DNA of 64,000 bases from Schauerella fraxinea (GTDB lineage: Bacteria; Pseudomonadota; Gammaproteobacteria; Burkholderiales; Burkholderiaceae_B). The DNA is taken from NCBI GenBank assembly GCA_030849965.1, contig JAVDKL010000001.1:2462554-2526553 (forward strand), written 5' to 3'. Both the position numbers and the translations under genes were made by a program. A model generated the notes under the pieces. That model was not told the DNA's origin. It was given only the letters and a program-made list of their open reading frames with translations, and ran no database searches. The number at the start of each line of letters is the position of its first letter. The first letter of the stretch is position 1. Below, one piece after another: positions 1 to 30,757 of the stretch.

Positions 1-115
1 AGCGCGCAGCCAGTTCGACTTCATCCAGGCGGGCGCCCGGACCCAACTCACCGGAAAAGATTTCGCCCTCGAGGGCCTCGAGAATCTGTTGGGAACGGCT
101 GAGCGAAGGGGCCAT
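1..115 (-). CDS. GntR-family transcriptional regulator, N-terminus only (cut by window edge)
   Basis: The first 38 codons of a minus-strand gene start at an ATG at 113-115. The residues (MAPSLSRSQQILEALEGEI followed by FSGELGPGARLDEVELAAR) match the first helix and turn of the GntR winged-helix domain, where the pattern 'I..GEL.PG.RL.E.ELA' is typical of FadR/VanR (FCD) members. The ligand-binding domain lies outside the window, so the subfamily is not certain. The gene is divergent from the 11-gene operon starting at 417 and is its likely local regulator. A TGTATACA palindrome lies in the shared promoter region. Confidence 0.8.
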   Translation of the reverse strand, partial: MAPSLSRSQQILEALEGEIFSGELGPGARLDEVELAAR

Positions 116-156
116 GGCGATAGAGAAAGTGAGATAACAAGGCGCTATTTTATCGA

Positions 157-190
157 TCAATGTATACATCGGCCAGCATTTTGTATGCAC
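157..190. promoter_or_regulatory. Candidate GntR operator in the 116-416 divergent promoter region
   Basis: The 301-base gap between the GntR gene and the SDR gene holds no credible coding sequence. It contains a perfect palindrome TGTATACA at 161-168 and a related TTGTATGCA at 181-189. FCD-type GntR proteins commonly bind short palindromes with a TGTATACA- or TTGTATACAA-like core (family knowledge). The site lies about 50 bases upstream of the GntR start, where autoregulation and control of the divergent operon would be expected. The assignment is inference. Confidence 0.4.
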
Positions 191-416
191 AGTTTCGGCG
201 CATGCTGATCCACGTTTGGCACCGCATCGGGGCACATCGTAGCGCTAGCAATGGCGCGCTCCTGCGAAGAAAAGTTGGCATGCATGTTGCTTGTATTCCC
301 TCACCGCAAAATCACTATCGACGCTGCGGACTCTTCGAACACGGCAAGCTTGACGGCCTGGTTGAATACATCAACGGCCACATTGCATGCATTTACGCCA
401 AGGATGCGATAGGTAG

Positions 417-1202
417 ATGGAACTCGGTCTGAAAGGTAAGTCGGCGCTGATCACAGGCGCATCCAAGGGCATCGGTCTGGCCACGGCGCACAGCTTTGCG
501 CGCGAAGGTATTTCGACCCTCTATCTGGCGGCGCGCTCCGTCGATGGCCTGGCCGCCGCAAAGGAAGCCCTGTCGTCGCAATACGGCACCACCGTGCACG
601 TGCACGCGATGGATCTGTCGGTCACGGAAAACGTGTTGCGTCTTGCGCGCGAGTGCGCCGAGGCCGACATCCTCGTCAACAATGCGGCCGACTCGTCCGC
701 CGGCCCGCTCGATCAGATTTCCGATCAGGTCTGGCGCGACAGCCTCGACCTCAAGATCTTTTCCTACGTGACGCTCACGCGCGAAATGTATGCGCACATG
801 AAAAAGCGCGGCAGCGGCGTCATCGTCAATGACATCGGCAACTCGGGCGAAAACTGGGATGCCAACTACATCGTCGGCACGACCGGCAACGCCGCAATGA
901 TGGCGTTCACACGTGGCGTGGGTGGCCGCAGTCTCGATGACGGCATCCGTGTCGTCGGCGTCAATCCCGGCCCGGTCGCCACCGACCGCATGGTCAAACT
1001 GATGAAACGCCGCGCGCTGGATTGGTATGGCGACGAGGGCCGCTGGGAGGAACTGTTCGACAAGTATCCCGCCAAGCGCCCCGCCAGCGCCGAGGAAGTC
1101 GCCGACCTGATGGTGTATCTCGCCTCGGATCGCGCGGGCTACATCACCGGCACCATCGTGACCATCGACGGCGGCATCGCTTCGCGCCGCTCCATCATCT
1201 GA
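417..1202 (+). CDS. SDR-family oxidoreductase (atypical active site)
   Basis: A 261-residue short-chain dehydrogenase/reductase, a normal length for a single-domain classical SDR. The NAD(P)-binding motif TGASKGIG is at about residues 14-21, NNAA at about 90-93, and the C-terminal region ends in the usual GTIVTIDGG. The active site is unusual: the tyrosine in DANYIVGT is followed four residues later by Thr rather than the catalytic Lys of YxxxK, as in a divergent SDR subgroup with a 'GNA.MAFT' segment. It is the first gene of an operon continuing to 10586, with 11 bases before the next ATG. It could oxidise or reduce a hydroxyl/keto intermediate of the imported compound; the substrate is unknown. 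Confidence 0.85.
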   Translation: MELGLKGKSALITGASKGIGLATAHSFAREGISTLYLAARSVDGLAAAKEALSSQYGTTVHVHAMDLSVTENVLRLARECAEADILVNNAADSSAGPLDQISDQVWRDSLDLKIFSYVTLTREMYAHMKKRGSGVIVNDIGNSGENWDANYIVGTTGNAAMMAFTRGVGGRSLDDGIRVVGVNPGPVATDRMVKLMKRRALDWYGDEGRWEELFDKYPAKRPASAEEVADLMVYLASDRAGYITGTIVTIDGGIASRRSII

Positions 1203-1213
1203 GCGGAGACACC

Positions 1214-2347
1214 ATGCGCCGCTTCGAAGCCCGTAACGCGTATTTCGATACGCTGTGCAATACGCCCGGCCTGATGTGGTTGGGTCAGAACACCAACCAC
1301 TTCGACCCGCACCCGGCGGTGATCGACGCGGTGATCGACGCGCTCAAGCGCGGCGATTATCACGCCTACGCACCACCGGCAGGCTTCGAGCGGCTACGCC
1401 AGCTCATCATCGAGGATGCGGGCGTGCCGGGCGCAAGCGCGTTCGTCACGGACGGCGCCGTCGAGGGCCTGTACAACGTGTGCCGCACGCTCTGCAAACC
1501 CGACACCGACTTCGTCACCACCGATCCCAGTTGGGCATGGCCGATGCACTTTGCGCGCCAGGCCGGCGCCACCGTGATCGAACTGCCGATTTACGACGCC
1601 GCCCAAGGCTACAAACTCACCGCGGACCAATTGAAGGCGGCCATCACGCCGCGCACGCGCGTGATCTATCTGGTCGATCCCAATAACCCCCTGGGCACGT
1701 GCCATACCGCTGACGAGATCGAAGCCATTGCCGCGATCGCACGCGAAGCCGATGCCTATCTGATCCACGACTCAACGTACTCGCAGTTCGCGGACAGCTT
1801 CACACCTGCCTACAACTTCTATCCCGAGAAGACGATCATGACCGTCAGCTTCTCGAAGTGGCTGGGGCTGGCCGGGATGCGCCTGGGCGCCATCATCGCC
1901 AATCCCGACATCATCGAAATGCTGGCGGCGGCGCCGCCCAACAACCTCGGCAGCAATGTGCTGTCGCAGCGTGCGGCCATTGCCGGCCTCGAAACCAAAG
2001 CCGAATGGTTTCCCGAGATCCAGCGCCGTCAACGCCGCAATCAGGCGGCAGTAGCCAAGGCCGCCGCCGGGGTACCGGGCCTGCATCTGCCGGTGTATCC
2101 GTCGCAAGCCAATCTGCTCATCATGGAAACGGTCGATGCCGGCATTACGCCCGAAGCGTTGGTCGCGGCTTATCAAGCCGAAGGCATCATGATTCGCCAA
2201 GGCACGTATCACACGCAGCGCTTCGGTCATCGCTTCGTGAAGATCAGTCTCACCGTTCCCGAAACCTGGGCCGACCGCTTCTGCGAACTGCTGCCCGCCA
2301 TGGTGGAACGCGCGCGCACGATGCCCGCGCCGGCTGCCCTGTTCTAA
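1214..2347 (+). CDS. PLP-dependent aminotransferase, fold type I (class I/II)
   Basis: A 377-residue fold-I aminotransferase. The start is set at ATG 1214, just after the SDR stop and a GGAG-like stretch; longer versions would overlap the SDR gene. Visible marks are DPNNPLG at 155-161 (the family NPxNPxG loop), Asp186 in HDSTY for the PLP ring nitrogen, and SFSK with the Schiff-base lysine Lys215, followed by Arg223. The protein should transfer an amino group between a substrate-derived compound and a keto acid in the cytoplasm. It sits second in an operon with an amidohydrolase and an ABC importer, so a nitrogen-containing substrate is plausible. The exact substrate cannot be read from the sequence. 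Confidence 0.88.
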   Translation: MRRFEARNAYFDTLCNTPGLMWLGQNTNHFDPHPAVIDAVIDALKRGDYHAYAPPAGFERLRQLIIEDAGVPGASAFVTDGAVEGLYNVCRTLCKPDTDFVTTDPSWAWPMHFARQAGATVIELPIYDAAQGYKLTADQLKAAITPRTRVIYLVDPNNPLGTCHTADEIEAIAAIAREADAYLIHDSTYSQFADSFTPAYNFYPEKTIMTVSFSKWLGLAGMRLGAIIANPDIIEMLAAAPPNNLGSNVLSQRAAIAGLETKAEWFPEIQRRQRRNQAAVAKAAAGVPGLHLPVYPSQANLLIMETVDAGITPEALVAAYQAEGIMIRQGTYHTQRFGHRFVKISLTVPETWADRFCELLPAMVERARTMPAPAALF

Positions 2348-2356
2348 GGAAATTCG

Positions 2357-3238
2357 ATGCCTACGATCACCACGCGCGACGGCGTTGCGCTGCATTACGA
2401 GGAAGCGGGATCGGGAACGCCGATCCTGTTCGTGCACGAGTTCGGCGGCGACTGGCGCAGTTGGGAGCCGCAGATGCGGTACTTCACGCGCCGGTATCGT
2501 TGCATCACGTACAGCGCGCGCGGCTACTTGCCATCGCAAGTACCGGAAAGCGTCGATGCGTACTCGCAGGTCAATGCGGTGAACGACATGATCGATGTCC
2601 TCGACGGATTGCACCTCGACCGCGCCCACATCATCGGCCTCTCGATGGGCGGCTTCGCGACCTTGCACTTCGGATTGCGCCATCCCGATCGCGCCCGTTC
2701 ATTGGTCGTGGCGGGTGCCGGTTACGGTGCCGAGAAAGCCTTCGAAGCGCACTTCCGCGACGTGTCATTGGCCGTGGCGGATCAATTCGAAAGCAAAGGT
2801 GCGCCGGCCTTCGCGCCCACGTATGCCACCGCGGCATCGCGCATCGTGTTCCAGGTCAAAGACCCGCGCGGCTGGCAGGAATTCGCCACGCAGTTGGGCG
2901 AGCATTCGTCGATCGGATCGGCACTGACGATGCGGGGCGTGCAGGCGCGCCGGCCGTCGATCTACGATCTCGAAGACGAACTCAAGCGCATGACCGTGCC
3001 CACGCTGATCGTGGTGGGCGACGAAGACGACCATTGCCTGCAGCCGGGCATCTTCCTGAAAAAGACGGTGCCGGCCAGCGGCCTGCTGGTACTCCCGAAG
3101 ACCGGCCACACCCTCAACATCGAAGAGCCTGCGCTTTTCAACCAGTTCGTCTCGGACTTCCTCGCCACCGTCGAGCAAGATAAATGGGGCGCACGCGACC
3201 CGCGCTCGGCGCCCACCGAAATCATGAAGACCTCATGA
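2357..3238 (+). CDS. Alpha/beta-fold hydrolase
   Basis: A 293-residue alpha/beta hydrolase with a good ribosome site (AAGGAAATTCG) before ATG 2357. The nucleophile elbow GLSMGG places Ser96. An acidic residue lies in GDEDDH (about 227-232) and the catalytic His in KTGHT near 254. An oxyanion-hole segment FVHEFGGDW at about 25-33 replaces the commoner HG motif. Family members include esterases, carbon-carbon bond hydrolases and enol-lactonases (3-oxoadipate enol-lactonase-like sequences look similar). The stop overlaps the next start as ATGA at 3235-3238, so it is translationally coupled to the amidohydrolase. Substrate unknown. Confidence 0.87.
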   Translation: MPTITTRDGVALHYEEAGSGTPILFVHEFGGDWRSWEPQMRYFTRRYRCITYSARGYLPSQVPESVDAYSQVNAVNDMIDVLDGLHLDRAHIIGLSMGGFATLHFGLRHPDRARSLVVAGAGYGAEKAFEAHFRDVSLAVADQFESKGAPAFAPTYATAASRIVFQVKDPRGWQEFATQLGEHSSIGSALTMRGVQARRPSIYDLEDELKRMTVPTLIVVGDEDDHCLQPGIFLKKTVPASGLLVLPKTGHTLNIEEPALFNQFVSDFLATVEQDKWGARDPRSAPTEIMKTS

Positions 3239-4491
3239 CGAAGCGCGCTTCCGATTTCGTCGATGCCGATCGGCTCAACGATCGTCTGGCACAGATGGCG
3301 CGCCTGGGGGCCACCGCAGCCGGCGGCGTCGATCGCCCGGCGCTCTCGCCCGCCGATGGCGCCGCGCAACAACTCATGGCCACCTGGGGCGCCCGGCTGG
3401 GTTTGACCCCGTCGCGCGATCCCGCGGGCAACTTCTTCTTGCGGTGGGCAGGCAAGCAAGCCGATGCCGCGCCGGTGATGTCGGGCTCGCATCTGGACAG
3501 TCAGCCTACCGGCGGCAAGTACGACGGCGTGTTCGGCGTGGTCGCCGCGCTCGAGGCGGTGCAGGCCCTGATCGACGCGGGTCGCCAACCCGAGATGCCG
3601 GTCGACATCGTGGCGTGGATGAATGAAGAAGGCTCGCGATTTGCGCCCGGCATGCTGGGGTCGGCCGCGTTCGCCGGCGCTCGCAGCCTGGAAGACACAC
3701 TGACTGTGAGCGACGCCGAAGGCATCACGGTGGCCGCGGCACTGGCGGCCCTGGCACCGGCGCTCGCCGCGATGCCGGCGCGCCCCTTGGGCGGCGCCGT
3801 GCACGCCTACATCGAAGCGCACATCGAACAGGGGCCGGTGCTGGAACGCGAGGGCCTGCAGGTTGGCGTGGTAACCGGCATTCAAGGCAAGCACACCTAT
3901 CGCGTCACGGTGCAAGGCGAGGCGGCGCATGCCGGCACGTCCACACGCACCGAGCGCCGCGATGCCCTGCTCGCCGCCACGGCGATGGTGCAGGCGTTGG
4001 CGGCCGAGATGCACGACGCCCAGGACTGCGTGAAGTTCACGGTGGGCCGCTTCGATGTGCAGCCCAGCGCGCCATCGGTGGTCGCCAGTTGCGTCGTGTT
4101 CTCGATCGACCTGCGGCATCCCGACAGCGAGACGCTGCGCGCGCTATCTGATCGCGTCGCGCCGATCTGCGCCGCGCATCGCGGGCCATGCGCGGTCGAG
4201 GTCGTGCGGTTGTCAGCGGCCGACTCGCTCACGTTTCCGCCCGCGTTGCGCAAGCACATCGATCAGGCAGCCGCCGCCCTGGCCATTCCGCATCGCGACT
4301 TGCCGTCGGCTGCCGGTCACGACGCGCGCTATCTGCATGCGATCTGCCCCGCTGCCATGATTTTCGTGCCGTCCCGCGACGGCATCACGCACAACGAGGC
4401 GGAATACACCGCGCCCGGCGACCTTTACGCCGGTGCGCGCGTCTTGACCGACGTTCTCGATCGCCTGATTACTTCTGCGAAGACACCATGA
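3235..4491 (+). CDS. M20-family Zn-dependent amidohydrolase (N-carbamoylase / allantoate amidohydrolase type)
   Basis: A 418-residue M20/hydantoinase-carbamoylase enzyme; start chosen at ATG 3235, coupled to the preceding stop. The metal ligands are visible as His86 in GSHLDS, Asp97 in KYDGVFG and Glu131-Glu132 in WMNEEGSRF; the dimerisation domain contains HIEQGP, characteristic of the carbamoylase/allantoate amidohydrolase/ureidoglycolate hydrolase group. A C-terminal His lies in GITHNEAEY. Family enzymes hydrolyse N-carbamoyl amino acids or ureido acids, releasing ammonia and CO2. Its place in an ABC-importer operon suggests it attacks an amide or ureido bond of the imported compound. It overlaps the ABC ATPase start (ATGA). 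Confidence 0.9.
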   Translation: MTKRASDFVDADRLNDRLAQMARLGATAAGGVDRPALSPADGAAQQLMATWGARLGLTPSRDPAGNFFLRWAGKQADAAPVMSGSHLDSQPTGGKYDGVFGVVAALEAVQALIDAGRQPEMPVDIVAWMNEEGSRFAPGMLGSAAFAGARSLEDTLTVSDAEGITVAAALAALAPALAAMPARPLGGAVHAYIEAHIEQGPVLEREGLQVGVVTGIQGKHTYRVTVQGEAAHAGTSTRTERRDALLAATAMVQALAAEMHDAQDCVKFTVGRFDVQPSAPSVVASCVVFSIDLRHPDSETLRALSDRVAPICAAHRGPCAVEVVRLSAADSLTFPPALRKHIDQAAAALAIPHRDLPSAAGHDARYLHAICPAAMIFVPSRDGITHNEAEYTAPGDLYAGARVLTDVLDRLITSAKTP

Positions 4492-5348
4492 CCGCTCATC
4501 GACTTTCCGGTATGTTTCCTGGCGTACCCGCCACCGCGCCCGCCACGCGCGCGCGTAGCGGCAGCCTGCTGGCCCTGACCAACATCTCGAAGACGTTCGG
4601 CGCCGTACAAGCCTTGAACGGCCTGAGTGTGGACATCGCCCCCGGCGAATTCGTGACGGTGGTCGGCCCCAGCGGCTGCGGCAAAAGCACCTTGTTCAAC
4701 ATCGTGGCCGGCCTCGAAGAACCCGATGACGGCGGCAGCCTGCAATTTCTGGGCAAGCCCTGCCGCGCACGCGATCTGCTGGGTCAGGTCTCCTTCATGC
4801 CGCAACGCGACCTTTTGCTGCCGTGGCGCACCGTGATCGACAACGCCATCCTGGCCGTCGAAATGGAAGGCGCCCGTAAAAGCGATGCACGCCGCGAAGC
4901 GCTGGCCATGCTGCCTGAGTTCGGCCTGACCGGCTTCGAGCAGCAGTATCCGCATCAGCTCTCGGGCGGGATGCGCCAACGTGTGGCGCTGATGCGCACG
5001 TTCATGTTCAAGCGCGATTTGATGCTGCTGGACGAACCGTTCGGCGCCCTGGACGCGCTGACGCGCAGCATGATGCAACGTTGGCTGCTGGACGTATGGC
5101 AAAAGCACCGCCGCACGATTCTGTTCATCACCCACGACGTCGACGAAGCATTGTTTCTCGGCGATCGCGTGCTGGTGATGACCGCACGCCCCGGCCGGGT
5201 GAAGCTGGAACTGCCGGTCACGCTCAGCCGGCCCCGCAACGCCGATATCGTCACCTCCCCCGAATTCATCGCACAAAAACGCATCCTGCTCGAAGCCATC
5301 GAAGAGGAAAGCATGAAGTCGTTCACCGCCCAAACCGGGAGCCACTGA
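4488..5348 (+). CDS. ABC transporter ATP-binding protein (NitT/TauT/ThiZ type)
   Basis: A 286-residue ATPase starting at ATG 4488 in an ATGA overlap with the amidohydrolase. Walker A GPSGCGKST is at 60-68, the Q-loop at about 100, signature LSGGMRQR near 160, Walker B LMLLDEP near 180 and the H-loop in FITHDVDEAL. The motif order and the short tail are typical of the nitrate/sulfonate/taurine and thiamine-precursor importer family. It energises the permeases at 8109 and 8885 with the binding protein at 7090. The ATPase is separated from the permeases by two enzyme genes (aldolase and dioxygenase), which suggests the transporter and enzymes act on the same compound. Confidence 0.93.
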   Translation: MTAHRLSGMFPGVPATAPATRARSGSLLALTNISKTFGAVQALNGLSVDIAPGEFVTVVGPSGCGKSTLFNIVAGLEEPDDGGSLQFLGKPCRARDLLGQVSFMPQRDLLLPWRTVIDNAILAVEMEGARKSDARREALAMLPEFGLTGFEQQYPHQLSGGMRQRVALMRTFMFKRDLMLLDEPFGALDALTRSMMQRWLLDVWQKHRRTILFITHDVDEALFLGDRVLVMTARPGRVKLELPVTLSRPRNADIVTSPEFIAQKRILLEAIEEESMKSFTAQTGSH

Positions 5349-6127
5349 TGAGCGCCCAACCCGATCTTCGTTCGCACGTGGCGCCCGACGAATGGGAAGC
5401 GCGCGTGGCCCTTGCCGCGTGCTATCGGCTCGTTGCTCGCCTGGGGCTCGACGACCTGATCTACAACCACATCTCGATGCGCGTGCCCGGCACCACGAAT
5501 GAGTTTCTGATCAATCCGTACGGCCTGCTGTTCGAGGAAATCACCGCGTCGTCCCTGGTGCGGATCGATCTCGCCGGCCGCGTGCTCAGCCCCACGCCGC
5601 ACACCGTGAACGTCGCCGGCTTCGTCATCCACGGCGCCATTCACCAGGCGCGGCACGATGCCGTTTGCGTGCTGCACACCCATTCGGATGCCAGCATCGC
5701 CGTATCGGCACAAGCGCAGGGGTTGCTGCCGCTATCGCAGTTCGCGATGCGGTTTTATCAGCGCCAAGCGTTTCACGACTATGAAGGCGTGGCCATCGAT
5801 CTCGACGAGCAACAGCGGCTGGTGAGCGATCTTGGCGACCACCGCGTGATGGTGATGCGCAATCACGGCGTGCTCACGCTGGGCCGCACACCCGGTGAAG
5901 CCTTCATGCTGCTGTATTACTTCGAACGCGCGGCACGCATCCAACTCAGCATGCAGGCCGCCACTGCCGGCGGCGCCGGTCCCATCCTCGCCCCCGCGCC
6001 CGAGGTGTGCGAGAAAGCCGCACGCCAATTCTGGGAAAACAAGGGCGACATCCTGATCGCCGGCGAACGCGAATGGCCCGCCTTCATCCGTCAACTCGAT
6101 CGCGACGATCCCTCTTACAGGAGCTGA
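5348..6127 (+). CDS. Class II aldolase/adducin-domain protein
   Basis: A 259-residue class II aldolase/adducin domain protein starting at ATG 5348 within a TGATG overlap with the ATPase stop. The Zn-ligand pattern is present: HTHSD near residues 99-103 and a later His in MRNHGVLTLG near 172. An early YNHIS motif (about 39) is typical of the aldolase-II subgroup fused to or found beside catabolic enzymes. Family members are L-fuculose- or rhamnulose-phosphate aldolases, decarboxylases and dehydratase-like proteins. Here it probably cleaves or dehydrates an intermediate; no phosphorylating kinase lies nearby, so a non-phosphorylated substrate is more likely (inference). Confidence 0.88.
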   Translation: MSAQPDLRSHVAPDEWEARVALAACYRLVARLGLDDLIYNHISMRVPGTTNEFLINPYGLLFEEITASSLVRIDLAGRVLSPTPHTVNVAGFVIHGAIHQARHDAVCVLHTHSDASIAVSAQAQGLLPLSQFAMRFYQRQAFHDYEGVAIDLDEQQRLVSDLGDHRVMVMRNHGVLTLGRTPGEAFMLLYYFERAARIQLSMQAATAGGAGPILAPAPEVCEKAARQFWENKGDILIAGEREWPAFIRQLDRDDPSYRS

Positions 6128-6130
6128 ATC

Positions 6131-7012
6131 ATGTCCATGTCACAACGTATGAGCACGGCCACACCTGCGCCATTTGCCGCGCGCCCGCTGCACACCGGTT
6201 TCGGCATCGAAGTCACCGATCTCGACTTGTCGAATCCGGATAGCGATGTCGTCGTCGATGCCCTGGTGACCGCACTGGATACGCATTCGCTGATTCTGGT
6301 GCGCGGCCAGACGTTGAGCAACGCTCGCCATGTGGACATCAGCCGTCGCTTCGGCGACCTGCTTACGCACGTGCTCAAGCAGTTTCTGACCACCGGCCTG
6401 CCCGAAATCTACGTGCTCTCCAACGTGAGCGAGCAAGGCAAGCCGATCGGCAACCACAAGGAAGGGTGGAACTGGCATTCGGATCTGTCGTATGTGGCCG
6501 AACCCAGCATGGGGTCGCTGCTGTATTCGGTGGAAGTGCCGCCGGAAGGCGCCGACACCTTGTTCGCGAGCATGCACCTGGCGTGGGAGTCGCTGCCGCC
6601 CGCCACACAAACCCAGATCCGCAATATGACGGCCACGCATTCTTACGAAGGCTATTACAGCCGCGCCTTCGCCGATCGCGCCCCGCTCACCGACGAGCAG
6701 AAAGCGCGTACGCCCGATGTGGTGCATCCCGTCGTGCGCACGCACCCCACCACAGGTCGCCTGTCGCTGTACGTGGGTCAGGACATCGTCAAGCAGATCG
6801 ACGGCCTGCCCGCGGAAGAAAGCGCGGCGCTGCTGGCTGCCCTTAATGCGCATGCCATCTCGGACGCGTTCACGTACCGCCACAAGTGGCAGCAGGGCGA
6901 TCTCATCATCTGGGACAACCGTTGCACCATGCATTGCGCCACGCCGTATGACGACAACCGGTACCGCCGCGTCATGCATCGCACCACGGTCGCGGGAACG
7001 CGCCCGTTCTGA
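6131..7012 (+). CDS. TauD/TfdA-family Fe(II)/2-oxoglutarate dioxygenase
   Basis: A 293-residue dioxygenase with a clear ribosome site (ACAGGAGCT) before ATG 6131; a second in-frame ATG is at 6137. The iron triad is His116-x-Asp118 in WHSDLSY and the distal His in WDNRCTMHCAT near 264; the 2-oxoglutarate-binding Arg is in RYRRVMHR. Family enzymes hydroxylate sulfonates, phenoxyacetates or carnitine-type compounds, often breaking a C-S, C-O or C-N bond. Together with the taurine-type ABC importer it suggests oxidative attack on an imported small molecule. Nothing in the gene itself shows that the substrate is taurine. Confidence 0.92.
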   Translation: MSMSQRMSTATPAPFAARPLHTGFGIEVTDLDLSNPDSDVVVDALVTALDTHSLILVRGQTLSNARHVDISRRFGDLLTHVLKQFLTTGLPEIYVLSNVSEQGKPIGNHKEGWNWHSDLSYVAEPSMGSLLYSVEVPPEGADTLFASMHLAWESLPPATQTQIRNMTATHSYEGYYSRAFADRAPLTDEQKARTPDVVHPVVRTHPTTGRLSLYVGQDIVKQIDGLPAEESAALLAALNAHAISDAFTYRHKWQQGDLIIWDNRCTMHCATPYDDNRYRRVMHRTTVAGTRPF

Positions 7013-7089
7013 TTGCCGTTTTCAAGTCGCGGCGGCTCACGCGCGCCACGACGCCAGTTGCTTTGCCCACACCACACAGGGGAAACATC

Positions 7090-8112
7090 ATGACCATTCG
7101 ACGTTTGCTGACCTTACTGGCCTGCACCGCCACGCTGGCGGTGGCGCAATTGACGCCTGCGGCGGCCGCCGATGCCAAAGCGCAGGTGAAAGCATCCTTG
7201 CGACTGAAATGGTTGCCGCAAACCCAGTTCGCGGGTTTCTATTACGCGCTTGAAAAGGGCTATTACAAGCAGGAAGGGATCGATCTCACCATCAATCCGG
7301 GCGGCCCGAACCTGTTGACCGAGAACCTGGTGGCCACGGGTGCGGACACCTTCGGTCTCTCCGGCGGCTCGGACAGCGTCATGGCCGCCATCGACAAGGG
7401 CATGCCGATCGTCTCGGTGGGCGTGGCGCACCAGATCACCCCCTTCGTGTTCGTGACGCGCAAGGACGGCCCGGTCAAAACGCTCAAGGACTTCGAAGGC
7501 AAGAAGGTCACGACCTGGTTTACCGGCGCCAATTACGTGCTCTTCGGCATGCTCGGCAACGAAGGCATCGACCGTGCCAAAGTGGACATCCAGCCGCAGC
7601 AAGTAAGCGTGACGCCGTTCGTCAATGGCGACATCGATGTGGTCACTGCCACCTGGTACAACGAACTCAACACGATCAAGGGCCGCATGAAGGCCGACGA
7701 TCTGAAGTACTTCGTGGCTGAGGACTACGGCATCACCTTCCCGCGCGACACCATCATCGTCTCGCGCGATACCGCCGCCAAGCAACCGCAGCTCGTCGAA
7801 GGCTTCCTGCGCGCGTCGATTCGCGGCTGGCGCGATGCGATGGCCAATCCCAAGGAAGCCGTCGATATCGTGATGAAGACCTCGCCCACGCTCGACCGTG
7901 CGCACCAGGAAGCCATGCTTACCGAAGCGTATCGCTTGATGACATCGGGCAAGGCGAAAACCGAAGGCCTCTTCACCATCGATCCGGTCGCGCTGCAGAA
8001 GGCTGAAGAATTCCTGCTCAAGAACAACGTGCTCACCAAGCAAGTCGATGTGTCGGTGGCATTTGACGATCGCTTCCTGAAGGCCATTCCGATGCAGGAT
8101 CGTCTGCCATGA
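7090..8112 (+). CDS. ABC transporter substrate-binding protein, NMT1/THI5-like
   Basis: A 340-residue periplasmic binding protein beginning at ATG 7090 after a GGGGAAAC ribosome site. The first 26 residues form a Sec signal peptide ending in PAAAA. The mature N-terminus (LKWLPQTQFAGFYYALEKGY) is the hallmark of the NMT1/THI5 superfamily, whose known ligands include hydroxymethyl- and formylamino-pyrimidines, riboflavin and alkylsulfonates. It is followed without a gap by two permeases (ATGA overlap at 8109). The 77-base spacer upstream from the dioxygenase is the longest inside the operon and may contain a secondary promoter, which I cannot confirm. Confidence 0.92.
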   Translation: MTIRRLLTLLACTATLAVAQLTPAAAADAKAQVKASLRLKWLPQTQFAGFYYALEKGYYKQEGIDLTINPGGPNLLTENLVATGADTFGLSGGSDSVMAAIDKGMPIVSVGVAHQITPFVFVTRKDGPVKTLKDFEGKKVTTWFTGANYVLFGMLGNEGIDRAKVDIQPQQVSVTPFVNGDIDVVTATWYNELNTIKGRMKADDLKYFVAEDYGITFPRDTIIVSRDTAAKQPQLVEGFLRASIRGWRDAMANPKEAVDIVMKTSPTLDRAHQEAMLTEAYRLMTSGKAKTEGLFTIDPVALQKAEEFLLKNNVLTKQVDVSVAFDDRFLKAIPMQDRLP

Positions 8113-8888
8113 GTGCCGCGGCCGCAGCCTTGCGTCCCGCCGCGATGTCGGTGCTGCGCGGCGCGGCCGCGCTGCTCGTGGTGGCGGCGTTGTGGGAGGG
8201 TCTGGTCATCGCGACCGGCGTCAAACCCTACTACCTGCCGCGCTTGAGCGTCATCCTGCAATCGATCGCGCAGGTGCCCGACGCCTACATTGCCGGCTTC
8301 TTGCGCACCGCATCCGAAACGCTGCTGGGTTTCAGCGTGGGCGCTGTCGTCGGTGTGTTCAATGGCGTCGTCTTCTCGCAATCACGGCGTTTGCGCGAGA
8401 TCATCTTTCCGCTCTTCGTGATCTCGCAAACCATCCCGGTCATTGCGTTCGGCGCGGTGGTGGTGCTGTGGTTCGGCAACACCATCCTCGCCAAGGCGGT
8501 GATCGCGTTTTATCTCACGTTCTTTCCCGTCACGGTGAATACGCTCAACGGCATCGAATCGGTCGACCCGCGTCAGGTCGATCTGCTGCGCAGCTTCGGC
8601 GCGTCGCGCTTCAAACTCATGCGCCAGTTGCTGCTGCCGGCTGCGCTGCCGCAGATCTTCGTCGCATTGCGGCTGGCCTGCACCCTGAGCCTCTTGGGTG
8701 CCATTGCCGGCGAGTGGTTCGGCGACACCGTGGGCTTGGGCGTGCTGTTGCTGCAGGCCATGTACAACGAACAGGTGGTGGCGCTGTGGGCCGCCATTCT
8801 GGTGGCCGGTTTATTGGGCACCACGTTCTATGGCCTCGTGGCGTTGGCGGAAAAGAAATTCGTCTTCTGGAAGGCTGAGCAAACATGA
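8109..8888 (+). CDS. ABC transporter permease (NitT/TauT type)
   Basis: A 259-residue inner-membrane permease with about six hydrophobic segments and the EAA-type cytoplasmic loop (RSFGASRFKLMRQLLLPAALP, about residues 162-181). It starts at ATG 8109, overlapping the binding-protein stop. The BPD_transp_1 domain covers most of the protein. It pairs with the second permease at 8885 as a heterodimer; both are served by the ATPase at 4488. Its length and loop are normal for the family. Confidence 0.93.
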   Translation: MSAAAAALRPAAMSVLRGAAALLVVAALWEGLVIATGVKPYYLPRLSVILQSIAQVPDAYIAGFLRTASETLLGFSVGAVVGVFNGVVFSQSRRLREIIFPLFVISQTIPVIAFGAVVVLWFGNTILAKAVIAFYLTFFPVTVNTLNGIESVDPRQVDLLRSFGASRFKLMRQLLLPAALPQIFVALRLACTLSLLGAIAGEWFGDTVGLGVLLLQAMYNEQVVALWAAILVAGLLGTTFYGLVALAEKKFVFWKAEQT

Positions 8889-9643
8889 ACGCACGTTCTC
8901 ACACCTCGCGCCGTGCGATCGTCAACGGCGCCATCGGCATCGTGGGCGTCGTCGTCTTGTGGGAGGCGGCCGCCCGATTACTGGATCTGCCGGTGTACGT
9001 GCTGCCCAGCGTCAGCCGCATTCTCGCGGCGATCGTCGCCCAGCATCAACTGCTTTGGAACGCAGCGCTGATGACGATGTGGGAAGCCGTTGCAGGCTTC
9101 TTCACCGGCAGCGCGGTGGGCGTCGTCCTGGCCATTACACTCACAATGATGCCGCGCGCGCGCCGCGTGCTGTTGCCGATGGCAACGGCACTCAACTCCG
9201 TACCGGTGGTGGCCTACGCGCCACTGATTCTGCTGTGGTTCGGCATCGGACCCACCTCCAAGATCGTGATGGTGGCGATCGCCGTGGGCTTTACGGTGTT
9301 TCTGCATGCGTTGTCGGGACTGGATCGGGTCGACCGCCGCGCCGTCGACCTGATGCGCAGCTTCGGGGCCAGCCCCGCCGCCATCATTTGGCGACTTCGC
9401 GTACCGGCCGCCATTCCGCTTACTGCCGCGGGCATGCGCGTGTCGACCGTACGCGCCATGATCGTGGCCATCGTGACCGAGATGCTGGGCGCCACCGGCG
9501 GCTTGGGCTGGACGATCTTCCAGGCCGTGCTGCAGATCGACTTCGTGCAGGTGTGGGCCGCCATCTTCGTCGCATCCGCCATCAGCCTGGTGTTCTTCGG
9601 CGGCGTCAACATGCTGGAAAAACGCTATGTCTTCTGGAAATAA
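8885..9643 (+). CDS. ABC transporter permease (NitT/TauT type), second subunit
   Basis: A 252-residue inner-membrane permease starting at ATG 8885 in an ATGA overlap with the first permease. It has the same six-segment layout and an EAA loop (MRSFGASPAAIIWRLRVPAA). The similarity of the two permeases suggests an ancient duplication and a heterodimeric channel. Its last 17 bases overlap the start of the cupin gene. Confidence 0.93.
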   Translation: MNARSHTSRRAIVNGAIGIVGVVVLWEAAARLLDLPVYVLPSVSRILAAIVAQHQLLWNAALMTMWEAVAGFFTGSAVGVVLAITLTMMPRARRVLLPMATALNSVPVVAYAPLILLWFGIGPTSKIVMVAIAVGFTVFLHALSGLDRVDRRAVDLMRSFGASPAAIIWRLRVPAAIPLTAAGMRVSTVRAMIVAIVTEMLGATGGLGWTIFQAVLQIDFVQVWAAIFVASAISLVFFGGVNMLEKRYVFWK

Positions 9644-10586
9644 CCCAGCTGCAACCAAGCCATCGATGGCCGCCATGGGCGTGCAAACGGTGGCACAGCC
9701 TGCGACCGACGCCCAAGCGCGCGCCCGCTACTTCAACTCGGCCAACGCCTTCAACGTCAAGCTGCCGGCTGTTCCTGCCCGCCTCTTCGATACCCCCGCG
9801 CGCGCCGCCATGGCCTCCGATAGCCCCACCGGTCTGTACGACTGCGATCAATCTTCGGCCCTGGGCTGTGCAATGCCGGCCACCACGCCGCTCATGCTCG
9901 CCCGCTATGCCCGCATCAACGCCGGCGACTCCCTATCCGTCGATCTGCGGGCCAGCGGCGCGCTCTGGTATGTGATCGCCGGATCGGGCACGGTGACGGT
10001 GGGCGAGGAAACATTGGCCTGGGCGCCGGGCGATGTGCTGGCCCTGCCGGGTGGCGCATTAACGTGGCGCGCCGGCGGCGAGGCCGCCGTGTTGTGGAGC
10101 GTGAGCGACGAACCGCTGCTCGCACAATTCGGGCTGCAAGCGCATCCGGCACTGGCCACTACCCTGCAACCCGTGCATTGCCCAGGTGCCGATATCGCTG
10201 CGCAGCTTGTGAAGATTCATGCCACCGAACCCGATCCCGGCACGTCCGGCATGGCGCTGGTATTTTCCAGCGATGCATTGATCGCGTCGCGCAACATCCA
10301 TCCCACGCTTACGCTGTCGCTCAACACGTTGCCACCGCAGAGCCTGCAGTCGTCGCACCGCCACAATGCCGCAGCGCTCACGTTGGTGGTGGCAGGCGAG
10401 AAATGCTTTTCAACGGTGGACGGCCTGGCGCACGATTGGACGCCATGGGCCACGCTCGTCACACCTGCCGGTGCGCCCCACGCGCATCACAACGCCGGCC
10501 CCGCCCGCGCCGATTTCCTGATCGTGCAAGACGGCGGTCTGCACTATCACACCCGCACGATGGACTTCACGTTTTTAGGGGCGTGA
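9627..10586 (+). CDS. Bicupin protein, gentisate-dioxygenase-like
   Basis: A 319-residue protein with two cupin folds. The N-terminal cupin (about 95-165) has the turn GSGTVTVGEE; the C-terminal cupin (about 225-315) carries SSHRHNAAAL, whose HRH resembles the metal-binding motif of gentisate and 1-hydroxy-2-naphthoate dioxygenases. The first cupin lacks an obvious HxH, so only one metal site is likely. It starts at ATG 9627 inside the end of the permease gene; ATGs at 9666 and 9675 are alternatives. As last gene of the operon it may be a ring-opening dioxygenase or an isomerase/lyase; the function is not proven. Confidence 0.8.
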   Translation: MSSGNNPAATKPSMAAMGVQTVAQPATDAQARARYFNSANAFNVKLPAVPARLFDTPARAAMASDSPTGLYDCDQSSALGCAMPATTPLMLARYARINAGDSLSVDLRASGALWYVIAGSGTVTVGEETLAWAPGDVLALPGGALTWRAGGEAAVLWSVSDEPLLAQFGLQAHPALATTLQPVHCPGADIAAQLVKIHATEPDPGTSGMALVFSSDALIASRNIHPTLTLSLNTLPPQSLQSSHRHNAAALTLVVAGEKCFSTVDGLAHDWTPWATLVTPAGAPHAHHNAGPARADFLIVQDGGLHYHTRTMDFTFLGA

Positions 10587-10712
10587 CGCGAGTGGACCAA
10601 GAGAAACAGATCAATCGAGCACGCGAAAAATCGGGGCCAATCGTCAAAGTATCGGTGTCGCGACACCGCAATGGGTGTTGCTCCAGAAATTTTCCGGCCC
10701 ACCGCCCTTGAC

Positions 10713-11948
10713 CTACAGCACCACGCCCCGCGCCCTCAGTGCCGCGATCTGCTCAGCCGACAATCCACACTCCGCGAGCACCGCATCCGTATCCTGCCCG
10801 AACACGGGCGCAGCATACGGCGCCGAGCCTGGCGTGCGGCCGTAGCGGATCGGCTCTGCAAATCCGCGATAGCGGCCCACCACGGGGTGGTCGTACTCGG
10901 CCACCATGCCTTCGGCGAGCACCTGCGGAAAATCGAACATATCCTCCACGGTGCGCGCCGCGGCGCATGGCACCGCTTCGCCAAACAGCTGCTCCCATTC
11001 GAGCGCCGATCGCGCGGCCAATGCCGCATGCAATTGCGGCACGATCTCGGCATGATGCTGCGCACGCTTGCGCACCGAGTCGTAACGCGAATCGGTGGCC
11101 AACGCCTGCAAGCCCGTGCGTTCGCAGAGCGCCGCCCAGAAATGCGGCGTATTGGCCGAGATGTACAGATAGCCGTCGCGTGTGGGATGGATGCCGGTGA
11201 TCCCACCCGAGCGCATATCGCGTCCCACTTCACGCGGTTCGGCATCGGCCCAGATCAACCGCGCGGATTGCAATGCCAGCGCACTGCGCATCAACGAGAT
11301 GCCTACGTATTGGCCTTCGCCGCTTTTCTCGCGTTCGTACAATGCCGACGCCACGCCGCTGGCCAATAGGGCCGACGCGTAGTAATCCACGATCGAGCCG
11401 TACAGGATTTCAGGTGCGCCACCGGCCTTGCCCTGCATCGCGCACATGCCCGTCATCGTCTGCAGGACCTGGTCGTAGCCGGCCTTGTCCTTGAGCGGCC
11501 CGGTATCGCCGTACCCGCTGACGGCGCAATACACCAGACGCGGATTGATCTCGCGTAACTGCTCGTAGCCGATGCCCAATCGCGGCGGTACTGTTGGCCG
11601 GAAATTATGCACGAGCACGTCGGCGGTGCGCACGAGGTCTTTCAAAATGTCCAAGGCGTCGGGCTGCTTGAGATCGAGCGCGATGCCGCGCTTGCTGCGA
11701 TTCACGCCCAGAAACGCACGGCTCTCGGTATCGAGGGTAGACGGATACTTGCGCAGGTTATCGCCCACCGGCGGCTCGATCTTGACGATCTCCGCACCCT
11801 GGTCGGCGAGCAGCGTGCACCCGTAGGGGCCGGCGATGTATGCGCTGAGATCGAGCACACGAATGCCGCTCAAGGGACCGGTACGGGGGGCCGTTCGCGG
11901 ATCGTTCGCAATAGCGCCAGCGGCGGAACGCGTGTGGGTCTCGCTCAT
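10713..11948 (-). CDS. CaiB/BaiF-family CoA-transferase
   Basis: A 411-residue family III CoA-transferase. The N-terminal segment GIRVLDLSAYIAGPYGCTLL, the motif VEIVKIEPP-like 'AEIVKIEPP' and NRSKRGIALDL are diagnostic. The catalytic Asp is in KAGYDQVLQ near residue 178. The enzyme moves CoA from a donor such as succinyl-CoA to a carboxylic acid. It overlaps the upstream lyase gene (ATGA at 11945-11948), so the pair should activate an acid and then cleave the CoA ester. A poorly conserved alanine-rich leader (about 28 residues) precedes the domain. Confidence 0.92.
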   Translation of the reverse strand: MSETHTRSAAGAIANDPRTAPRTGPLSGIRVLDLSAYIAGPYGCTLLADQGAEIVKIEPPVGDNLRKYPSTLDTESRAFLGVNRSKRGIALDLKQPDALDILKDLVRTADVLVHNFRPTVPPRLGIGYEQLREINPRLVYCAVSGYGDTGPLKDKAGYDQVLQTMTGMCAMQGKAGGAPEILYGSIVDYYASALLASGVASALYEREKSGEGQYVGISLMRSALALQSARLIWADAEPREVGRDMRSGGITGIHPTRDGYLYISANTPHFWAALCERTGLQALATDSRYDSVRKRAQHHAEIVPQLHAALAARSALEWEQLFGEAVPCAAARTVEDMFDFPQVLAEGMVAEYDHPVVGRYRGFAEPIRYGRTPGSAPYAAPVFGQDTDAVLAECGLSAEQIAALRARGVVL

Positions 11949-27362: not shown

Positions 27363-28109
27363 TTACGCGGCGTGCTCGGTCATGCGCGATAGAAACGATT
27401 GCGTGCGCGGGTGTTGGGGCGCGCCGAACACGGCTTGTGGCGTGCCCTGCTCCACGATCACGCCGCCATCCATGAACACCACCCGATCGGCCGCCGCCCG
27501 CGCAAAACCCATTTCGTGACTGACGACCATCATCGTCATGCCGTCTTCCTTGAGTTCGCGCATCACATTGAGCACGCTCCCCACGAGTTCCGGATCGAGC
27601 GCGCTGGTGGGCTCATCGAACAGCACCACCTTGGGCCGCAGCGCCAGCGACCGGGCGATGCCCACCCGCTGTTGCTGCCCGCCAGACAACGCATCCGGGT
27701 AGGCCGCTGCCTTCTCGGCCAGGCCTACACGGGCAAGCGCCTCGTGGCCGCGCGCATCCGCATCGGCACGCGACATCTTCTGCACCTTTCGCAGGGCCAG
27801 CGTCACATTGCCCAGCACGGTCATGTGGCGATAAAGATTGAAGTGCTGGAACACCATGCCAATGTTCTGCCGAATGCGGTTCAGATCGGCGCGTGGCGCG
27901 GTGATGTCGTCGCCGTCCACCACGATCGATCCCGAGCTCGACTCCTCCAGCCGATTGCAGCAACGCAACAGGCTGCTCTTGCCCGATCCGGACGGCCCGA
28001 TGATGAAGACCAACTCGCCGGGATGCACATCGAGATCGATGCCTTTGAGGACGGCATTGCTGCCGTAGGATTTGTGCAGATTCGAGATCCGCAGGATAGG
28101 CGTAGCCAT
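27363..28109 (-). CDS. Amino-acid-type ABC transporter ATP-binding protein
   Basis: A 248-residue ATPase; ATG 28109 chosen since the extra 19 codons upstream are not conserved. Walker [10 protein letters not shown], signature [17 protein letters not shown], Walker [15 protein letters not shown] and H-loop VVSHEMGFA are complete. The sequence is of the GlnQ/HisP type that drives polar amino-acid uptake. It lies between the binding protein (28179) and its two permeases. The cargo is probably an amino-acid-like or ureido compound processed by the hydantoinase upstream. Confidence 0.95.
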
Positions 28110-28178
28110 CACGTACTCCAGAATGCGTGCAGGCACGGCGCCCGCCATGCCTGCGAGGTCGTTCAACCGCCCATCACC

Positions 28179-29281: not shown

Positions 29282-30757
29282 TTACTCGTCGTTGGGATGG
29301 CTGCCGAAATACTTGCGCACCAGCGCATTGGGATTGCCGTTCAACCGTTGACGCAAGACCGGCTCGGGCGTGCCACGAACCAGGAACCGGCCACTGCCGC
29401 GCTCGGCATCGAGCACACCACCTTCGACCACGACGCGCCCGCGGCTCACCACGATCTCGGGCCAGCCTTGCACCTCGCGCCCTTCATAGGGGGTATAGCC
29501 CACATTGTCGTGCAGCATGGCGGTTGAAATCGTGACGCGCCGTTCGGGATTCCAGATGCCGATATCGGCACCCACGGCAATCGTGCCTTTGCGGGGATGC
29601 AGCCCATAGGTGCGCGCGTGATTGGTCGCCGTCAACGCCACAAACCGTTCGATCGTCATGCGGCCCGTCATCACGCCTTCGGAGAACAGCAGCGGCATGC
29701 GCACCTCGAGTCCGGGTACGCCGTTGGCCATATCCTTGAAGGTCGTCGCTTCCCCTTTGGGCAACTTGCCGCTTTCGTCGAAGCGATAAGGCGCATGATC
29801 CGACGAGAACATCTGCAGGGTGCCATCCAGCAAGCCCTGCCACACGGCGGCTTGCGACTCGGGATCGCGCGGCGGCGGGCTGCAGCAGAACTTGGCGCCC
29901 TCGAGGCCCGGCAGATCCAGGTCCTCCGCCGTGAGAAAGAGATACTGCGGGCAGCTCTCGGCATGGATCGGCAACCCCAACGCTTGCGACGAATGCACCA
30001 CGCGCACGGCTTCGATGCCCGCCACATGCACGATCATCAGCGGCACATCCATCATGCGCGCCAAGGCAACAGCACGATTCGTCGCCTCGCTCTCAGCCAA
30101 AGGCGTGTGCGCGACGGCGTGATACTTGGGCGCAGTCATGCCGCGCTCGGCCAGACGCCGCGCCACCCAGCGAATCATGTCGTTGTTCTCGGCGTGCACC
30201 ATCACCAGCGCACCTTCGCGATCGGCGACGTCAAGCACGTCAAGCAACTGAAAATCGTCAAGCTTCATGCGCTCGTACGTCATGAACACTTTGAACGACG
30301 TGATGCCGCTTTTGATCAACGCCGGCAGATCATGCTTGAGCGCCTGCTCGGTGGGGTCGGACACGATGAGGTGAAAGCCGTAGTCGATGACGGCTTTCTC
30401 GGCTGCGCGCTTCGAATAATCGGCCACCACTTCCGGCAGCAGATCGCCGCGGTGCTGCGCGGCAAACGGAATGATGGTGGTCGTGCCGCCGAACGCGGCC
30501 GACACCGTGGCACTGTAGAAGTCGTCGGCGCACATCATGCCCATGCCCGATAGCTGCTCGACATGGCAATGACTATCGATGCCGCCCGGCAGCACCCACC
30601 GGCCGGCGGCATCGATATCGCGCTTGCCCGGTGCCAAGCCGCTGCCGATCGCCACGATGACGCCGTCGCGCACACCGATGTCGGCATGGTAAGTATCGCT
30701 GGCCGTTGAAATGCGGCCGTTGCGTATCGTCAGATCGAACTCGGTGGGCAAGGTCAT
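29282..30757 (-). CDS. Dihydropyrimidinase / D-hydantoinase
   Basis: A 491-residue cyclic amidohydrolase. The binuclear metal site is visible: His63 and His65 in DSHCHVE (family usually T-H), the carboxylated Lys156 in TSFKVFMTY, His in VMVHAEN and VHVAG, and Asp in SSDHAPY. The length is standard (about 460-490). It opens dihydropyrimidine or 5-substituted hydantoin rings to N-carbamoyl amino acids. It is flanked by an amino-acid-type ABC importer, an SDR and a DapA-like lyase on the same strand. No pydA-type dehydrogenase or beta-ureidopropionase lies next to it, so pyrimidine degradation itself is not assured. Confidence 0.93.
   Translation of the reverse strand: MTLPTEFDLTIRNGRISTASDTYHADIGVRDGVIVAIGSGLAPGKRDIDAAGRWVLPGGIDSHCHVEQLSGMGMMCADDFYSATVSAAFGGTTTIIPFAAQHRGDLLPEVVADYSKRAAEKAVIDYGFHLIVSDPTEQALKHDLPALIKSGITSFKVFMTYERMKLDDFQLLDVLDVADREGALVMVHAENNDMIRWVARRLAERGMTAPKYHAVAHTPLAESEATNRAVALARMMDVPLMIVHVAGIEAVRVVHSSQALGLPIHAESCPQYLFLTAEDLDLPGLEGAKFCCSPPPRDPESQAAVWQGLLDGTLQMFSSDHAPYRFDESGKLPKGEATTFKDMANGVPGLEVRMPLLFSEGVMTGRMTIERFVALTATNHARTYGLHPRKGTIAVGADIGIWNPERRVTISTAMLHDNVGYTPYEGREVQGWPEIVVSRGRVVVEGGVLDAERGSGRFLVRGTPEPVLRQRLNGNPNALVRKYFGSHPNDE

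Follow-up and report, generated by a model that had tools for sequence, protein, structure and literature searches.

What does the operon at positions 417 to 10586 of this stretch of Schauerella fraxinea DNA (64,000 nucleotides, nt; hereafter the window) take up and degrade, if its eleven genes join an ATP-binding cassette (ABC) importer of the THI5 type to seven enzymes of very different families? We propose, with a probability of roughly 0.43, that it encodes an inducible catabolic system for an anionic, planar, nucleobase- or vitamin-like N-heterocycle, which would be imported, oxygenated and opened. In this proposal the importer would take up the heterocycle, for which other bacteria would have its N-(deoxy)riboside as a further source; the TauD-family dioxygenase, or a flavin monooxygenase in other lineages, would hydroxylate the compound or oxidatively remove a side chain; the Fe(II) bicupin would open the ring after this oxidation; hydrolysis of the open-chain product, with release of nitrogen, would fall to the alpha/beta hydrolase and the M20 amidohydrolase; and three proteins with altered active sites, resembling an aminotransferase (AT), a short-chain dehydrogenase/reductase (SDR) and an aldolase, would convert the remainder to central metabolites.

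The initial annotation had suggested that an N-containing ring is opened oxidatively or that a side chain is removed. Our data are compatible with both, and the fold of the cupin, an exchange of the oxygenase between lineages and the nucleoside genes that neighbour related clusters sharpen what we still infer. Its remark that it knew of no described pathway with this set of genes agrees with our searches, as neither the NCBIfam scans nor searches of open-licence literature surfaced a characterised equivalent of the operon. If our reading is true, a catabolic route for a natural heterocycle has gone unnoticed in many proteobacteria, overlooked because each of its genes bears a generic name.

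Organisation and conservation of the operon

All eleven genes described earlier as translationally coupled were recovered at their positions on the forward strand, in the order SDR, AT, alpha/beta hydrolase, M20 amidohydrolase, ABC ATPase, class II aldolase-like protein, TauD, substrate-binding protein, permease 1, permease 2 and bicupin (Table 1). The successive junctions measure 11, 9, -4, -4, -1, 3, 77, -4, -4 and -17 nt; nine of the ten thus lie between -17 and +11 nt, and the exception, 77 nt from the end of the TauD gene at 7012 to the binding-protein gene at 7090, suits the earlier wording that nearly every junction is tight. Pfam and NCBIfam agree with the first family calls, namely an NMT1/THI5-like binding protein, BPD permeases, an ABC ATPase, an M20 hydantoinase/carbamoylase, Aldolase_II, TauD, Cupin_2 (two stretches), Abhydrolase, Aminotran_1_2 and SDR. 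A single operon of importer and catabolic enzymes, which remains a predicted one, is backed by this gene order and by its conservation. The promoter and terminator scan of positions 1-11200 neither supports nor breaks the unit, because its counts are near or below expectation (no sigma-70-like promoter against 2.6 expected, and seven terminator-like sites against 8.5).

The search for conserved synteny that had been proposed for these genes returned the identical eleven-gene order in eight of 200 genomes from the family, counting the window's own, which is more than a chance arrangement; a cupin relative above 200 bits occurs in 11 of the 200, and eight of these share the exact order. A pattern scan of genome contigs yielded 211 relatives, the best 80 loci of which were kept for the counts. 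Among these 80, the SDR is present in 61, the AT, the alpha/beta hydrolase and the M20 protein in 51 each, the aldolase-like protein in 61, the binding protein in 59, TauD (at least 60% identity) in 18, the flavin monooxygenase (at least 60%) in 41 and a nucleoside hydrolase in 23. AT, alpha/beta hydrolase and M20 protein behave as one block: they occur together in 51 loci, always with SDR and cupin, and, with the thresholds applied, a locus that has one of them always has all three. The SDR stands without them in ten loci, and locus L073 holds an M20 fragment, below the counting threshold, beside the cupin without AT or alpha/beta hydrolase.

Rearranged versions of the cluster occur in Alpha-, Beta- and Gammaproteobacteria, among them rhizobia, Methylobacterium, Variovorax, Bordetella/Achromobacter, Pseudomonas, Halomonas and Roseobacter-type bacteria. 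In Bordetella genomosp. 4 (L131; G206:C20) the operon is split: ATPase, aldolase-like protein, TauD, binding protein, permeases and cupin lie together, and SDR, AT, alpha/beta hydrolase and M20 protein are found on another contig. Profile searches for the AT found it in at least four of 398 genomes of the phylum (own genome included) and in at least seven of 199 genomes of one rhizobial family, two of them known beforehand; both figures are lower bounds, as the best few candidates per genome were scored. The system is thus widespread but sparse.

Exchange of the oxygenase

Clusters with core and cupin carry either TauD or a flavin monooxygenase of the NtaA/DmoA type. On a tree of the AT with 55 rows, 21 are associated with TauD, 34 with the flavin monooxygenase (L051 and L052 labelled by hand from the whole-genome check) and none with both. 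Five loci from the window, near-copy or duplicate genomes (L009, L043, L034, L037 and L038) were left out of this tree, of all residue and AllC-ligand counts and of those for the palindrome TGTATACA discussed below; L035, L036 and L041 were also dropped for the GLSMGG, AT lysine and one of the M20 motif alignments. The tree implies three changes of oxygenase, perhaps only two, because it is a quick build with long-branch warnings that include L098, one of the switched rows. The counts vary with the thresholds: in the count over the 80 loci, the 51 core loci divide into 17 with TauD, 30 with the flavin monooxygenase, none with both and four with neither. In two of the latter, L046 and L056, a flavin monooxygenase gene is cut off at the end of the locus, and the other two (L051 and L052) have one just past it. 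The two Xanthobacter genomes that at first seemed to have neither oxygenase carry the flavin monooxygenase, at 71% identity, just beyond the end of the locus. No flavin monooxygenase above 50% identity was found anywhere in 11 genomes of the TauD type, nor any TauD above 50% in 16 genomes of the other type. The two enzymes probably carry out one and the same oxidation. Cores without a cupin do not follow the rule: L138 has a more distant NtaA/DmoA-type enzyme and L137 a different luciferase-like protein, and neither oxygenase was seen among the genes matched in L139, L152, L153 and L154.

The assignment of the flavin enzyme to the NtaA/DmoA family is clear (529 bits, cut-off 280); YtnJ/MoxC, nitrilotriacetate monooxygenase and DszA are among its nearest structures, and a flavin reductase-like gene accompanies it in 11 loci. 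The TauD protein, for which rows of at least 60% identity were counted, keeps H116, D118, H268, T143 and R280 in 22 of 22 rows and is thereby an Fe(II)/2-oxoglutarate dioxygenase. In E. coli taurine dioxygenase the substrate is contacted by H70, Y73, V102, F159, F206 and R270. The anion-binding pair H70/R270 (E. coli numbering) is kept in 22 of 22 rows, Y73, V102, F159 and F206 are changed, and the score of the NCBIfam taurine dioxygenase model (204.5, cut-off 313) places the protein outside taurine dioxygenase proper. Among solved structures, (R)-phenoxypropionate dioxygenases and taurine dioxygenase come closest to it.

These relatives, the NtaA/DmoA type of the flavin enzyme with its nearest structures, the retained His70 and Arg270 and weak matches of binding protein and ATPase to SsuA/taurine models could all be explained if the oxygenase, of either kind, attacked a substrate such as R-X-CH2-COO- or R-CH2-SO3- at the carbon adjacent to the heteroatom and oxidised it, splitting off an aldehyde (for instance glyoxylate) or sulfite and leaving the ring to the remaining enzymes. 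We consider this unlikely, as both oxygenase families catalyse other oxidations too, the taurine contacts have changed, TfdA has a lysine where the operon family has His70, and thiamin or a pyrimidine is the ligand of the two solved binding proteins closest to that of the operon. Moreover, no sulfite gene occurs among the Pfam-annotated recurrent neighbour families, an annotation that covers neighbours other than clusters c18 and c21 and the rare ones; the one TauE/SafE gene observed lies at the edge of L137. The operon resembles TauABCD in combining an NMT1-superfamily importer with a TauD dioxygenase, but differs in its seven enzyme genes against one, in the changed substrate contacts of TauD and in a binding protein whose two nearest solved relatives are of the ThiY type, with TauA at 23 bits.

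The bicupin

The proposed opening of the ring would fall to the bicupin, the model of which (predicted local distance difference test, pLDDT, 87.9) matches salicylate and gentisate 1,2-dioxygenases with Z-scores of 27-29, the next family reaching about 20. The similarity lies in the overall fold and in His-rich, putatively metal-binding motifs; identity in the structural alignment is 12-15%, and the conserved histidines sit in the C-terminal cupin, unlike in these dioxygenases. By sequence, the C-terminal half of the bicupin resembles the N-terminal half of gentisate dioxygenase and its N-terminal half the C-terminal half of 5-aminosalicylate dioxygenase, and the scores with the NCBIfam equivalog models are below cut-off (gentisate_1_2, 55.9 against 442; MabB, 57.3 against 650). 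The swapped halves hint at a circular permutation of the cupin domains. The structural alignment, however, runs in order, so that a metal site moved from one domain to the other is equally possible. Ureidoglycine aminohydrolase (UGHY/AllE) was rejected as an assignment because it fits the fold less well (Z of about 19, compared with 28).

A cupin of this fold would also suit a non-nitrogenous aromatic acid, on which the nitrogen enzymes would act at an amide or amino side chain, and a homologue of the alpha/beta hydrolase (47%; L159:8980-9864) lies downstream of an IS6100 copy on a plasmid of Sphingobium sp. CFD-1, near VOC, fumarylacetoacetate-hydrolase and CoA-transferase genes. Such a substrate is quite improbable, since it leaves nucleosidases, a BMP-type importer and a ThiY-like binding protein unexplained.

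Five loci of alphaproteobacteria, largely metagenome-assembled genomes, combine the cupin with a TauD of 36-38% identity, a distant relative (L077, L084, L094, L113 and L090). Genes for AmtB and P-II lie near the first three of these, and a choline-dehydrogenase-like gene and one for an Amidohydro_2 protein near the cupin of L113.

Altered active sites

In four of the enzymes, namely SDR, AT, aldolase-like protein and M20 amidohydrolase, residues that define the usual chemistry of the family are uniformly changed. Classical SDR dehydrogenases use an Asn-Ser-Tyr-Lys tetrad, alpha-amino-acid aminotransferases of fold type I a lysine that holds pyridoxal phosphate (PLP) and an arginine for the substrate carboxylate, FucA-type class II aldolases Glu73, and AllC the asparagine of its NVVP substrate motif. 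Compared with E. coli FabG, the SDR has Lys for N110, Asn for S138 and Ser, Ala or Thr for K155, each in 64 of 64 rows; its tyrosine is retained in one alignment and three residues off in another, so at least three of the four tetrad residues are gone. Aligned to solved aspartate aminotransferases, the AT keeps the PLP lysine and has a lysine for the C-terminal arginine, both in 52 of 52 rows, and in the latter residue departs from the alpha-amino-acid aminotransferases. The three zinc histidines of the aldolase-like protein are kept in 65, 65 and 64 of 65 rows, whereas Glu73 is replaced by Ala (41) or Gly (24) in all of them. The M20 protein (TIGR01879, 359 bits, cut-off 204) has the metal site of an amidohydrolase, with the equivalents of AllC H81, D92, E126, E127, H190 and H382 kept in 51-52 of 52 rows; the asparagine of NVVP is Ser in 49 of 49. 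The nucleophile region GLSMGG of the alpha/beta hydrolase is conserved among relatives.

The same replacements are found in six cores that stand apart from the cupin (L137, L152, L153, L154 and L156 in loci without a cupin, and the split L131), where the AT lysine, the M20 serine and the SDR lysine with an IGN motif occur in six of six each. The earlier name "atypical SDR" was consequently right, while "aldolase" and SDR mislead if read as activities, the FucA glutamate and most of the tetrad being gone. It is a tentative and rather doubtful extension of our proposal that the core of SDR, AT, alpha/beta hydrolase and M20 protein, together with aldolase-like protein, cupin and interchangeable oxygenase, constitutes an undescribed route opening a nucleobase- or vitamin-derived N-heterocycle, in which SDR, AT and aldolase-like protein would carry out reactions foreign to their families because the defining residues have been uniformly replaced. 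Thanks to the altered active sites and the exchange of the oxygenase, a small number of assays could test for the substrate directly.

Degradation of vitamin B6 via 4-pyridoxate employs an SDR, a decarboxylase of class II aldolase fold (Mlr6791, 2z7b) and enzymes of alpha/beta hydrolase types. The same types recur in the operon, but Mlr6791 scores 38.5 bits against the aldolase-like protein, and oxygenases and transporter differ.

Binding protein and candidate ligands

The substrate-binding protein has the domain and fold of the NMT1/THI5 family (PF09084, 188.6 bits, cut-off 20.5). Its closest solved relatives by sequence are the thiamin-bound 4nmy (90.9 bits) and the formylaminopyrimidine-binding 3ix1 (58.8 bits), with TauA at 23.0 bits, and both lead again in a fold search with the model (pLDDT 89.6); below them Thi5 and TauA have similar E-values and Thi5 has the better TM-scores. 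Of the ligand classes suggested initially, pyrimidine-like compounds fit the two nearest structures, while matches to sulfonate and taurine models below their cut-offs keep sulfonates under consideration. Sulfonate uptake as the first choice has been lowered on account of the ThiY-type relatives, with the sulfonate, taurine and nitrate matches below cut-off still to be accounted for.

A closer approach to these structures would be a substrate such as the thiamin pyrimidine (hydroxymethylpyrimidine, HMP, or a relative) or thiamin itself, with which the next rank of Thi5 and vitamin-type energy-coupling factor (ECF) transporter genes beside some clusters would agree (L063, L064, L088 and L156, where the core also adjoins a nucleoside hydrolase gene). 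This is very improbable: no riboswitch reached the Rfam gathering threshold in the 13 loci tested, no thiaminase occurs among the annotated recurrent neighbour families, and we know of no role of nucleoside hydrolases or uridine phosphorylase-like proteins in the breakdown of HMP. A riboswitch-regulated vitamin was rejected in general, the RNA of the signal recognition particle being the only Rfam match at that threshold in these 13 loci.

Nucleoside genes and variant clusters

An IU-type nucleoside hydrolase gene lies downstream of the cupin in 23 of the 80 loci, in 21 of these within 30 nt. Many of the loci belong to close rhizobial relatives, the others to Rhodobacterales, Kaistia, Bosea and Mesorhizobium. 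On a plasmid of Rhizobium sp. CB3060 without a cupin match, the core runs in the same direction as genes for a BMP-type ABC importer, for DeoC and for a protein resembling uridine phosphorylase (216.6 bits, cut-off 280), and phosphopentomutase and thymidine phosphorylase are encoded nearby on the opposite strand. Mimosine degradation, which the Leucaena origin of this strain had brought to mind, was dropped because the genes there are those of nucleoside salvage.

A second type of cluster, in Kaistia, Bosea and some Rhizobium, lacks AT, alpha/beta hydrolase and M20 protein, and the AT is absent genome-wide from six of six such genomes searched (L061 left out). Some of these clusters have an amidase, an aldehyde dehydrogenase or a maleate-isomerase-like gene. 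Genes of the arylmalonate decarboxylase/Asp-Glu racemase superfamily, to which maleate isomerase is related, were noted in four clusters (L119:13065-13796, L060:2010-3128, L080:13087-13824 and L122:7282-8187; two of the four examined with Pfam), none with a detected AT, and hint at a maleate-like end product.

Weighing the proposed pathway

Several observations weigh against the heterocycle proposal. On the one hand, its parts are separable. Sixteen of the 80 cupin relatives stand without AT, alpha/beta hydrolase, M20 protein, aldolase-like protein or binding protein, in some cases next to a more distantly related TauD; the cupin is therefore not restricted to a single substrate. Five of nine plasmid records holding the AT carry no cupin, so ring opening by the cupin is no fixed step of the core unless the cupin sits on another replicon. 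On the other hand, the clues to the substrate are mixed. In the fold search TauA entries are interspersed with those of Thi5. NCBIfam relates the binding protein to SsuA_fam (77 bits, cut-off 163.5) and to taurine models, and binding protein and ATPase taken together to models for sulfonate, taurine and nitrate, with every score below cut-off. The nucleoside hydrolase matches RihC, UriH and RihA below their cut-offs, its nearest solved relatives are annotated as purine nucleosidases, no such gene was found in the stretch covered for 57 of the 80 loci, and the own genome of the window has no IU-type nucleoside hydrolase. It is the purine-nucleosidase relatives and the weak sulfonate matches that have reduced our confidence.

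Finally, plain pyrimidines are probably served by other genes already, because 13 of 15 genomes have a dihydropyrimidinase-family protein and five of 15 a RutA over the cut-off, the former family also spanning hydantoins and thus being no proof of pyrimidine use. Catabolism of plain uracil or thymine by an undescribed route, which would account for the M20 and RutD-like hydrolase families and for the uridine phosphorylase-like protein, thymidine phosphorylase and DeoC beside one core and the nucleoside hydrolases beside others, is for this reason highly improbable, all the more so as such a route would leave oxygenase, cupin and aldolase-like protein without an evident function.

Neither of the known pyrimidine pathways corresponds to the operon. 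The Rut pathway for uracil uses the flavin monooxygenase RutA, the alpha/beta hydrolase RutD, RutC and RutF. The clusters with the exchanged oxygenase share with it a flavin monooxygenase, in 11 loci with the reductase-like gene, and the alpha/beta hydrolase of the operon matches RutD weakly (77.5 bits, cut-off 238.5). The flavin enzyme is nevertheless no RutA (66 against a cut-off of 498), and Rut has no TauD, cupin, aldolase-like protein, SDR or aminotransferase. The reductive pathway proceeds via dihydropyrimidinase, an M20 N-carbamoyl-beta-alanine amidohydrolase and an aminotransferase. The M20 protein of the operon is of the same family (8c46 and beta-alanine synthase are among its matches) and accompanied by the AT, but the operon has neither dihydropyrimidine dehydrogenase nor dihydropyrimidinase, its M20 motif has Ser for Asn, and the host carries separate dihydropyrimidinase-family genes.

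Regulator, candidate operator and neighbouring genes

A GntR/FCD-family gene lies upstream of the operon in divergent orientation and mostly beyond the window, its start codon at about position 115 having been read by eye; relatives of at least 40% identity occur in 54 of the 80 loci. Between regulator and operon lies the palindrome TGTATACA, the only occurrence in the window. Of the nine sites found in 1.54 Mb of related loci (the 78 that hold a cluster gene, with the five loci named above dropped), eight precede a cluster gene by 500 nt or less, in eight of the 78 loci. We regard the palindrome as a putative operator, present in a minority of loci.

Table 1. Features of the operon and its upstream region in the window.
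Feature	Position	Strand	Basis
GntR/FCD-family regulator, N-terminal part	1..115, continues past the window edge (L009:7004 onward)	-	phnR_burk, NanR and PRK11414 models, all below cut-offs
Palindrome TGTATACA, putative operator of the GntR regulator	161..168	.	location between regulator and operon
SDR-family protein, PRK06125 type, normal catalytic tetrad missing	417..1202	+	Pfam/NCBIfam, residue alignment
PLP fold-type-I aminotransferase-like protein, PRK06225; Lys in place of the carboxylate-binding Arg	1214..2347	+	NCBIfam, alignment
Alpha/beta hydrolase, 3-oxoadipate enol-lactonase/RutD/C-C hydrolase-like	2357..3238	+	NCBIfam models, every one below cut-off
M20 hydantoinase/carbamoylase-family amidohydrolase; metal ligands kept, AllC NVVP Asn replaced by Ser	3235..4491	+	Pfam/NCBIfam, alignment
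ABC importer ATPase	4488..5348	+	Pfam/NCBIfam
Class II aldolase/adducin-fold protein, PRK07044; zinc histidines retained, Ala/Gly at the place of FucA Glu73	5348..6127	+	NCBIfam, alignment
TauD-family Fe(II)/2-oxoglutarate dioxygenase; NtaA/DmoA-type flavin monooxygenase instead in other clusters	6131..7012	+	Pfam/NCBIfam, alignment
Substrate-binding protein, NMT1/THI5 type, nearest to ThiY-type (thiamin/formylaminopyrimidine) structures	7090..8112	+	Pfam, sequence and fold search
ABC permease 1	8109..8888	+	Pfam
ABC permease 2	8885..9643	+	NCBIfam
Bicupin with the fold of salicylate/gentisate 1,2-dioxygenases; C-terminal cupin with His-rich motifs (H244, H246, H285, H287)	9627..10586	+	NCBIfam, fold search

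Directly downstream of the operon lies a convergent gene (10713-11948, reverse strand), which we take, by eye from its sequence, to be a candidate CaiB/BaiF-type CoA transferase; an open reading frame of the same length (411 amino acids) occupies the matching place in L033. Some 19 kb downstream of the operon the window also encodes a dihydropyrimidinase/hydantoinase (29282-30757, reverse strand; TIGR02033, 536 bits; PRK13404, 768 bits), which adjoins an amino-acid-type ABC ATPase gene (27363-28166) and belongs to a separate hydantoin or pyrimidine locus.

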